Shown here piece by piece: positions 42,741 through 46,626 of a stretch of DNA of 64,000 bases (positions within the stretch are counted from its first letter, which is position 1; each line of letters begins with the position of its first letter). Below the pieces are notes generated by a model that was given only the letters and a program-made list of their open reading frames with translations, did not search any database and was not told where the DNA came from. Location of the stretch: NCBI RefSeq assembly GCF_000737325.1, contig NZ_CP011125.1, positions 8,370,001 to 8,434,000 of the forward strand, written 5' to 3'. This DNA is from Sandaracinus amylolyticus (GTDB taxonomy: Bacteria; Myxococcota_A; Polyangia; Polyangiales; Sandaracinaceae). A program made the translations under genes and the position numbers.

Positions 42741-45317
42741 TCAGCCGCGGCGACGACGGCACGCGAGCGCGGCGGCGGTCACCACGAGCCACGGCCACCA
42801 CGCCGACGCACGACGCGACACGGGACACGAGCACCCGCCGCCGAGCAAGTGGCTCCCGGCGTCGGGGGCGGATGCTCCTCCGTCCGCCGGCCCCGCGTCG
42901 TCTCCGTCGGGCGGGAGCACGCCGGCGTCCTCCGCCGCGGCGTCGTGGGGCCCCGCGTCGATGCCGGCGTCGCACGTGAGCCGGCACGCGCCGGCGCCGT
43001 CGCAGAGACCCGAACACCCGCTGCTCGCGCATGCGCTCGCCGCCGCGCGGGGTGCGCAGTGCCCGTCGACGTCTCCGCCCGACGCCGCGCTGCACGCGAG
43101 ACAGTCGTCGGGATCGCCGCCGCCGCACGCGTCATCGCAGCACACGCCGTCGACGCAGTGAGCGCTCGCGCACTCGTGGTCGGCGTCGCACCGCACGCCC
43201 TCGGGCGCCGCGAAGAGCACGCGCGAGCGGGCGCGTTGGTTGCGGTACGGGCTCTCCACGACCCACCGCGCGTACGCGACGACGCAGTCGCCGCTCGGCT
43301 GGCAGCCGATCCCACCCGATGGGTACGTCATCGAGACGAGCGGCTGGATCACGAACGGCGCTCCCGGGACGAGCGCGTCGTCCACGTCGAGCCCGTACAG
43401 CGCGTGACCGACTCGCTCGGGATGGTCGGTGGTGAGCACGGTCCAGCCGTGACCGCGTGCCGCGATGCCCAGCGCGACCCAGCGGTCGGGCAGCGCTTCG
43501 CCTGTTCAAACCGAGAGCACGGCGGCGGCCGTGTCGACGGTCGAGAGGCGCGCCGACCACGCTCCGCCGTCGTGCGATTCCTCGGTCCATAGCGCGACCG
43601 TCGCGCCGCGCGCCGCGAGCGCCTCGACGTTGCCGGACACCGTCACTCCGGCGCCATCGCGCCAGCCGAGCTCGCGATCCCAGCGCGCCAGCACCCAACT
43701 GCCGCGCCACGACCGGATCGCGGCGAGCGCGCCACTGGGGACCGTGACCAGGAGCAGCTCGCGATCCGACCACTCCGCGCTCGGGACCGGGATCGCGACG
43801 GGCGGGAGGTCCGGCTGGGGCGCGTGGCGCATGAGGGAGTCCGACGTGCCCACGACGAAACGCTCGCCGTCCCACGCGATCGACGACCCGAATGGGACCG
43901 GGACACCATCTCCGACCGGACGCAGCGATCGGTCGAAGCGGTACAGCGTGTCCATCGCGTCTCGCGACGCGACGAGCGCGACCACGTCGCCGCCGATCGC
44001 GAGGCGCGCCCGATACGCGTGCTCGACGGAGGTGCTCGCGGTCACGGCACCATCGCTCGCGAGGCGCACGAGCCTCACGCGCTCCTCGGTGAAGTGATCC
44101 TCGGTCTCGCGCCACGCCGCGAAGTGGGCGCCCTCGTCGCTCGCGAGCACGAGGTCGTCGTGCGTCGACGCGCGGAGGTCCTCGTCTCCTTCGAACCGCT
44201 CTTCCACGTCGAGCGATCCGGGAGCCACGCGCATCCAGTCGGGCTCCTGCCACTCCCAGGAGCCGAGCACGCGCCCGCGGAGGTGGCCCACCAGCCACCC
44301 GGTCCCCGACCACACGGGGAACGGCGCGTGCCACCAGCCGGCGAACGCGCGCAGAGCGAGCGTCGGCGGCGGTAGACGAGGGTCGATCTCCGCGAGCACC
44401 AACCCGGCCTCGGTCGCGCCGTAGACGAGGATCGTGTCGCCGCCCGACGCGACCAGCATGTGTCGGGTGGTCGAGGTCCGGGCGGTGGGCGTGCCATCGA
44501 GCGCGAGCCACTCGATCTCGCTGTCGTCCCAGCGCCATACCGCATATCCGTAGCGAGACGCGGCGAACGCGCCCGGTGCGACGGCCGACGTCCGGGCGCG
44601 CGCGGGGCTCTCGTCGCGGCGGAAGAGCACGGTCCGCCCGCCGATTGCAGCGATGCACTCGACGGGGCCGCACGTCACCCGGTACGGCGCGTCGGGGAGC
44701 GGCGCGCGATCCAACACGCCCCCGGTCGCCGGGTCGACGCGAGTCATCGTGATGGCGCCGCTCGCGTCACGAGTCGTGGCGACGTATGCACGGCCGTCGA
44801 ACCACAGCTCGGCGTACGAGTCGGCGTGCTCGGCGTGCTCGGCGAGCGCGATTCGCTCGCGGGAAGGGCCGCCATCCGGGCCGAGGAGCTGCAGCCAGCG
44901 CCGCCATCGCCACGGGCCGTCGCGGCTGACGGTCTCGTAGTACGACACCGCGAATCCGGCGGTGCCCGCCGCTGCGAGCACCCTGCGCTCGAGCCCGAGC
45001 TCGGTCGACGCCGCGACCACGCGAGGGGTGCCGGTCGGTGTGCCGTCGTGCCGAAGCGGAAACGCGAGGATCTCGAGCACGGGATACACGTCCTCGAACC
45101 CGATCACGACGCACGCGTCGCGCTGATCGCAGAACATCGACGGCTGCGGGTAGCCCGTCATACCGGCCACGTCGGTGCCGTGCAGCGGCGCGAGCTCGCG
45201 CTCCTCGCCGACGCGGAGCGCCGCGCCCGCAATGGAGACGGCCGAGGGTGGCTCCGGCGCGCAGCCGAGCGCGATCAAGGAGACCGAGAGCGCGAGGGCC
45301 GCGCGGATCCAGCGCAT
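42741..45317 (-). pseudogene. MYXO-CTERM-type surface protein gene interrupted by in-frame TGA
   Basis: The first part (45317-43506, 603 codons) has a lipoprotein-type signal (LSVSLIALGC) and beta-propeller-like repeats (YRVTCGPVECIAAIGGRTVL). It ends at TGA 43508-43506. The same frame continues without another stop (TGEALPDRWVALGIAARGHG and on) through a Cys-rich domain (CDADHECASAHCVDGVCC) to a MYXO-CTERM-like tail (GGGCSCPVSRR, one helix, then RRRR) ending at 42741. So one TGA splits an 858-residue surface protein. It may be a true nonsense mutation, readthrough, or an assembly error. The first half could still be secreted, without its sorting tail. Confidence 0.85.
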
Positions 45318-45350: not shown

Positions 45351-45908
45351 TCAGTCGGCGCGTCGGTACTCGAGCCGGTACTGCACGGGCGCGGGGAGCA
45401 GCGCGCCGCTCATCGTCACGTCGAGCGTGAGGCGCTGACCGTCCGCGCTCGGCGCGAACACGTTCCAGCGACGGCCCTGATCGGTCGAGAAGATCTGCTC
45501 GAGGCGACCGCCGCGCACGAGGTGCACGACCTCGACCGTCTCGCCCGCGTAGCCCGGCACCGGCATGCGGCGCGGACGACCGGGCGCGGTCGCGAACGCG
45601 TTCGCGCCGAGGCGCACCTCGATGCGCTCGGGCGCCAGGTCGATCGCGACGTCGCGATCGATCGGCGTGCGCGCGCGCAGCTCTCCCTGCGCCATGCCGC
45701 GCACGAAAGGGAGCATCCCGTCGATGGCGCGGTCGATCGCCCGCTCGATCGTTCCGCGCGCGTCGGGCTCGCGCGTGGCGAGCGACCACGCGCCGCTGAT
45801 CGCGTGGTCCACCGCCGCGTCGCCGACGCTCTGACCGCGCGCGCGCGGCGGTGCCGACACGAGGCCGAGCAGCAGGGTCATGGTGATGGCGAGGACGAAT
45901 CGCTTCAT
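45351..45908 (-). CDS. Secreted protein, paralogue of the divergent neighbour, 185 aa
   Basis: Signal peptide MKRFVLAITMTLLLGLVSAP precedes a domain beginning ISGAWSLATREPDARGTIER and ending LEQIFSTDQGRRWNVF, SADGQRLTLDV and YRLEYRRAD. The same landmarks occur in the divergent gene at 46039, so the two are paralogues. No known domain was recognised. The mature part is basic, helical at first and then beta-rich, which suggests a periplasmic or secreted binding protein. The start ATG 45908 lies 130 bases from its partner start, giving a shared promoter region. Confidence 0.82.
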   Translation of the reverse strand: MKRFVLAITMTLLLGLVSAPPRARGQSVGDAAVDHAISGAWSLATREPDARGTIERAIDRAIDGMLPFVRGMAQGELRARTPIDRDVAIDLAPERIEVRLGANAFATAPGRPRRMPVPGYAGETVEVVHLVRGGRLEQIFSTDQGRRWNVFAPSADGQRLTLDVTMSGALLPAPVQYRLEYRRAD

Positions 45909-46038
45909 GGGCGCCTCCGGTGACCGGGAGTGCCCGCTCGACGTGGGTTCGTTCACAGGGCGCGCGCAAGGAGCGCAACGTTTCTTCGCGTTGAGCGAGA
46001 GCTGGTCGGACGCACGTGACGCGAGAGGAGGCACGGCC

Positions 46039-46626
46039 ATGCGACACGCCGCTGCGATCTCGGTCTCGCTGCTCCTCGCGCTCGGCGCCTTCGCGCTCGC
46101 GGCGCCCATCGGTCACACGCAGGAAGGCGCGGAGGGCGAGAGCGCCCAGCCCTCCGGCGACACCAGCATCGCCGAGCGATTGAACGGACGCTGGGCGCTC
46201 GTCCACGGCGAAGAGGCCGCGCAGCGCACGGTCGATCAGGCGATCGAGCACACCACCGACGGCATGGTGCCGATCGTGAGCGGCGTGACCGCGAACGAGC
46301 TGCGCGAGCGCAACCCGGTCAACGGCGCGTTCACCATCCAGATCTCGCCCGAGCGCATCCGCACCGAGTTCGAGACCGCGACGTTCGACAGCGCGCCGGG
46401 CGCGTCGGTGCGCACGAACATCCCCGGCGAGTCGGAGGAGATGCAGCTCGTGCAGGTGCTCCGCGAGGGGCGCCTCGAGCAGATCTTCACGACCGATCGC
46501 GGCCGCCGCTGGAGCGTGTTCGTCCCGAGCGCCGACGGTCAGCGGCTGACGATGCAGGTGACGATCACGTCCGGCATCATCCCGCGCCCCCTGCGCTACG
46601 AGCTCGAGTACCAGCGCGCGCAGTGA
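46039..46626 (+). CDS. Secreted protein, paralogue of the divergent neighbour, 195 aa
   Basis: Signal peptide MRHAAAISVSLLLALGAFA precedes LNGRWALVHGEEAAQRTVDQ, then LEQIFTTDRGRRWSVFVPSA, SADGQRLTMQV and YELEYQRAQ. These landmarks match the divergent gene at 45351-45908 in order and spacing. GAGAGGAGG lies 8 bases before the ATG. It is more acidic than its partner. The function is unknown; head-to-head paralogues suggest duplication by inversion and possible joint regulation. Confidence 0.84.
   Translation: MRHAAAISVSLLLALGAFALAAPIGHTQEGAEGESAQPSGDTSIAERLNGRWALVHGEEAAQRTVDQAIEHTTDGMVPIVSGVTANELRERNPVNGAFTIQISPERIRTEFETATFDSAPGASVRTNIPGESEEMQLVQVLREGRLEQIFTTDRGRRWSVFVPSADGQRLTMQVTITSGIIPRPLRYELEYQRAQ

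Follow-up and report, generated by a model that had tools for sequence, protein, structure and literature searches.

Does a lone in-frame TGA in a surface-protein gene reflect a true nonsense mutation, a boundary between two genes, a recoded or leaky stop, or an error in the sequence? This question is raised by a minus-strand locus of the soil bacterium Sandaracinus amylolyticus (genome G000), located in a window of 64,000 nucleotides at 8,370,001-8,434,000 of the contig (the whole stretch of DNA that was analysed, to which positions refer unless a chromosomal coordinate is given). It was verified by translation that 45317-42741 forms a single 859-codon frame, counting the final stop, which is interrupted solely by the TGA at 43508-43506. 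From the ATG at 45317, the frame runs through 603 sense codons, this TGA, 254 further sense codons and a terminal TGA. The evidence discussed below makes it probable that a lineage-specific accessory gene for a large exported protein carries here one nonsense codon, which most likely arose recently by ordinary mutation in the strain or lineage. The features of the locus are the following:

43506 to 45317, minus strand: upstream part of the gene (603 codons and the in-frame TGA), encoding a signal peptide with the lipobox-like ALGC19 together with most of a region resembling a beta-propeller
43506 to 43508, minus strand: in-frame TGA, codon 604, followed by the base A and predicted to lie at the boundary of two propeller blades
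42741 to 43505, minus strand: second part of the gene, 254 codons plus the terminal TGA, with the last propeller strands, a Cys-rich domain, an Asp/Ala-rich linker and a MYXO-CTERM-like tail
43046 to 43205 (approximate), minus strand: Cys-rich domain, about residues 705-757, CDADHECASAHCVDGVCCDDACGGGDPDDCLACSAASGG
42741 to 42850 (approximate), minus strand: MYXO-CTERM-like tail, with LGGGCSC, a hydrophobic helix and CRRRRG
42741 to 43439, minus strand: separate 232-aa gene with a GTG start according to a simple gene caller; this gene start is probably not real

One gene across the stop codon

The coding properties of the frame are equal on either side of the TGA, with GC3 values of 0.90 and 0.89 and CAI values of 0.58 and 0.60 for the first and second halves, respectively, and the alternative frames of the second half scored below frame 0 when coding signals were compared. 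A 254-codon open frame has a chance of about 4% in random sequence of the same base composition and, by itself, is not rare in GC-rich DNA; therefore, it is homology that provides the real evidence for one gene. Significant homologues of the second half were found in 10 of 10 family genomes and in 55 of the 377 genomes sampled from the phylum; among the matches listed, each one lies within a longer frame that runs upstream without a stop. The best relative (L082, in genome G007) gives a single alignment to query residues 427-788 that spans the TGA (E 4e-16, 29% identity), and weaker homologues likewise align across its position. Translation, equal GC3 and CAI, and homologues continuous across the stop thus bear out what had been proposed from the letters of the DNA, namely one frame with a single in-frame TGA, and this interruption of an accessory surface-protein gene is real. 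The Cys-rich domain, which had been placed in the downstream half, was also recovered there and is intact, the nine Cys columns that are invariant in a 31-sequence alignment all being present in this protein.

The possibility that the second half is an independent gene starting at GTG 43439 corresponds to the call made by the simple codon-usage gene caller. However, the domain was never found alone, and the two parts, whose occurrence as separate genes in relatives the sequence-only reading had named as a refutation, were never separate among the relatives found, with the downstream domain always accompanying an upstream part. Additionally, the coding signal and the predicted propeller strands continue directly from the TGA, ahead of the GTG. 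No signal peptide of its own was seen in the second part (42741-43505), and a Cys-rich MYXO-CTERM-like protein devoid of a signal peptide would stay unexported. Two separate genes are, in view of these observations, very improbable.

The position of the stop relative to the protein fold was addressed with a structure model of residues 470-790, in which the TGA was read as Trp and the 31-sequence alignment was used. The model reached a mean pLDDT of 74 and displayed strands arranged as propeller-like blades, and its best matches among solved structures were mostly beta-propellers (GH130, GH43, XusB and WD40), with TM-scores of about 0.35-0.4. The TGA corresponds to model position 135, directly after the last strand of a blade (131-134) and ahead of the next blade (144-192). 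According to this model, a truncated protein would be deprived of roughly the last two blades and of all that lies downstream of them. An AlphaFold model of the full read-through protein, built from an 8-row alignment, was discarded due to its pLDDT of 39.8.

An accessory gene in Sandaracinus

Comparison with the congener G001 revealed that the gene lies in a segment without a counterpart in that genome:

42741 to 45332, no strand assigned: segment without a counterpart in G001, with conserved DNA on either flank

At the corresponding site, G001 carries about 0.9 kb of unrelated DNA, composed of a hemerythrin-domain gene and a small ORF. The flanking DNA of the two genomes is about 90-95% identical, and the neighbouring CAP protein is 97% identical. 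Judging from this arrangement, the gene is an accessory one, present or missing as one unit, and it is dispensable, considering that the congener has other genes in that place. In the adjacent region, the minus-strand ORF 45351-46109 probably starts further inside, at MKRFVLAI (about 45908), since the part upstream of this motif overlaps the divergent gene 45880-46626 and contains a TGA in G001.

The first half of the gene had no ortholog in the 377 phylum genomes, in which two weak local matches were obtained, or in a collection of 84,980 species searched by a peptide-pattern scan. Consequently, no ortholog displays the ancestral codon of the TGA site. The gene being missing from G001, the counterparts available for comparison were paralogs or distant homologues, all of which are single-frame.

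Assessing a sequence error

The genome of S. amylolyticus DSM 53668T comprises 10.33 Mb in a single contig with 72% GC, and it was assembled from PacBio reads of about 85x coverage with HGAP/Quiver, the Illumina data having served for a plasmid check (PMC5010890). The TGA would be absent from the real chromosome if one base was wrong or if two nearby indel errors compensated each other; one indel could not create it, because both sides of the TGA are in the same frame. The site is represented by a single assembly, and residual errors do exist, as proven by indel differences between the redundant contig ends. However, across about 18 kb of these duplicated or overlapping ends, 15 bases were gapped and the number of substitutions was 0. 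The errors observed to persist in the assembly are therefore indels, making a substitution-type error at the TGA unlikely, and a frame-restoring pair of indels within about 30 bases is improbable. The fit of codon usage to frame 0 is poor in the nine codons around the TGA, as would suit a short out-of-frame stretch, but dips of this size are ordinary, occurring in 19 of 846 gene windows (2.2%). A sequencing error at 43506-43508, which had been raised as a possible refutation of the interrupted gene, is thus an unlikely origin of this stop codon.

Regarding the redundancy itself, the contig start (L153, C1:1-10877, 10.9 kb) duplicates the internal segment 599399-610275 (L154) and overlaps the contig end (L155), with indel differences only. 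This duplicated start is probably an unresolved assembly end, as a result of which four tRNA genes are falsely duplicated.

A nonsense mutation as the probable explanation

To evaluate the occurrence of comparable lesions, the genes of G001 were compared by tblastn with a syntenic stretch of 400 kb from S. amylolyticus, which provided 264 ortholog hits and 101,209 aligned residues. This ortholog-based count replaced an earlier codon-score scan for interrupted genes, which returned mostly neighbouring same-frame genes and missed the gene under study. Two internal stops were observed in S. amylolyticus, one of them clean. This is a TAG at C1:8497261-8497263 (L203:3261-3263, minus strand), interrupting a tRNA-editing-type gene (domains tRNA_SAD and DHHA1), whose frame is open beyond the TAG and whose G001 copy is intact. 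Although the count is small, a clean single nonsense codon is neither unique to the present gene nor confined to TGA.

The locus resembles nonsense-interrupted bacterial pseudogenes in being an accessory gene whose homologous frame is open but for a lone stop, with a second case, the TAG, within 400 kb. It differs from them in that no ortholog exists here in the intact state, so that none displays a sense codon at the site. The conserved Cys residues are intact and no further lesion was observed, which fits a recent mutation but would also fit a full protein that is still made. From this set of observations, we infer a true mutation.

If so, translation would end after 603 residues, and the product would be devoid of roughly the last two propeller blades and, beyond them, of the Cys-rich domain and of the sorting tail at the C-terminus. 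Due to its signal peptide with the lipobox-like Cys19, this product would probably still cross the inner membrane and may be lipoprotein-anchored. The downstream 254 codons would be silent, and a start at GTG 43439 would yield a protein without a signal peptide.

Phase variation by point mutation, which the sequence-only reading had also considered possible, did not gain support, as the site has no repeats and neither a phase-variation tract nor an invertible element was found at 43506.

The two ends of the protein

The C-terminal tail had been described as MYXO-CTERM-like, and this description holds for its layout only. By inspection, the tail displays the tripartite arrangement of a Cys motif, a transmembrane helix and an Arg-rich end (LGGGCSC...WWPWLVVTAAALACRRRRG), and a helix was placed at residues 842-857 in the low-confidence model of the full protein. 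However, it scored 6.9 bits against TIGR03901, below the cut-off of 20, and its membership in the MYXO-CTERM family is not supported by score. Five paralogs in the same genome reached 16.9-28.4 bits, and the lower score of this tail could result from decay or from mere divergence. Compared with the MYXO-CTERM proteins sorted by myxosortase (TIGR03901; PMC11980579), the protein shares the Cys motif, the hydrophobic helix and the Arg cluster behind a Cys-rich domain and linker, a layout also found in the paralogs, most of which pass the model. Unlike those proteins, its tail is sub-cut-off, the gene is broken upstream of the tail, and the N-terminus carries a lipobox-like Cys.

This last difference bears on the proposal that a protein deprived of the second half would be released. 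In Myxococcus xanthus, TraA without its MYXO-CTERM is released (PMC11980579), and the analogy would be a fair one for a protein without a lipobox. However, the N-terminus of the present protein (MRWIRAALALSVSLIALGC) exhibits a lipobox-like ALGC19 behind a hydrophobic stretch, and although this motif differs from the canonical lipobox, lipobox-like motifs also occur in most of twelve homologues. Release is thus not secured, since the truncated product could be held by an N-terminal lipid.

Possible recoding or readthrough of the UGA codon

The frame would also stay functional if a dedicated recoding system inserted selenocysteine or a different amino acid at the TGA, or if TGA were reassigned. 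One tRNA gene does exceed the tRNA-Sec threshold, but its anticodon is CGA, and no SelB scored over its cut-off. No UCA anticodon, as expected of a suppressor tRNA or tRNA-Sec, was present among the tRNA loci found. The gene was consequently rejected as a selenoprotein candidate, as neither a tRNA-Sec(UCA), nor a SelB over the cut-off, nor a SECIS-like structure at the site was observed. TGA is also the normal terminator in this genome, closing 87% of the called genes in 400 kb, and the CAP-domain genes end at TGA where the domain ends. A reassigned UGA was discarded as well, because the family members recorded with one or two TGA codons presented ordinary C-terminal stops or noncoding extensions in the regions examined. 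Recoding of either kind is hardly conceivable at this locus. The tRNA-Sec-shaped gene (G000:C1:8691243-8691328; L134:444-529, plus strand) scored 50.4 bits against RF01852, whose cut-off is 47. It is the third in a row behind tRNA-Tyr and tRNA-Pro genes, was missed by ARAGORN at default settings, and is possibly an allo-tRNA reading UCG.

A different route to the second half would be leaky or selected UGA readthrough by the tRNA-Trp. In the tRNA-Trp(CCA) of S. amylolyticus (G000:C1:3144322-3144394; L137:220-296, minus strand), apparently the sole tRNA-Trp found, the uppermost pair of the anticodon stem is replaced by a C27.A43 mismatch, leaving a stem of 4 bp, with A9 and G24 being normal. The congener G001 has the identical gene, five other Sandaracinaceae genomes have a G-C pair at 27-43, and no tRNA-Trp match was obtained in G002, the third Sandaracinus genome. 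On the basis of these gene sequences from the two testable genomes, the 4-bp stem appears to be a derived state in the genus Sandaracinus. A previous study reported that a 4-bp-stem tRNA-Trp, when overexpressed in E. coli, increased UGA readthrough about 2.5-fold, and that about 6.5% of standard-code bacteria have no tRNA-Trp other than such forms (PMC13092985). The Sandaracinus tRNA resembles the 'Blastocrithidia-like' tRNA-Trp CCA of that study in the C27.A43 mismatch, the CCA anticodon, the retention of A9 and G24, and its apparently being the sole tRNA-Trp. It differs in that Sandaracinus uses the standard code with TGA still as the main stop.

This tRNA, together with the otherwise intact second half, is consistent with the insertion of Trp in a fraction of passages, which would result in a minor full-length form bearing the MYXO-CTERM-like tail besides a truncated lipoprotein-like form. 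On the other hand, TGA accounts for 87-89% of stops in Sandaracinus versus 82% in G009, which has a 5-bp stem, and back-up stops are not in excess relative to that genome. Since TGA stops are not fewer and back-up stops not more than in G009, strong genome-wide readthrough is unlikely. Furthermore, no special RNA structure or stem-loop was detected across the TGA (z 0.24), no ortholog was found that could display conservation of the TGA, and the frequency of the same tRNA state among standard-code bacteria also weighs against it. Minor readthrough at the TGA is possible, but its being the explanation of this locus is doubtful, slightly less so than a sequence error. That the tRNA reads UGA as Trp often enough to provide two surface-protein forms, a short lipoprotein-like one and a long one with the Cys-rich domain and sorting tail, is more doubtful still.

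As an interrupted accessory gene, which is the preferred interpretation, the locus has little import beyond annotation, and the two called ORFs belong in one interrupted-gene record. If the two-form alternative were true, it would represent a natural case of a standard-code bacterium in which readthrough driven by a tRNA determines the surface localisation of a protein. If the Sandaracinus tRNA-Trp reads UGA at a useful rate, this gene would offer a natural reporter with which to address the question, raised previously, of whether 4-bp-stem tRNA-Trp exerts physiological effects at native levels in standard-code bacteria (PMC13092985).
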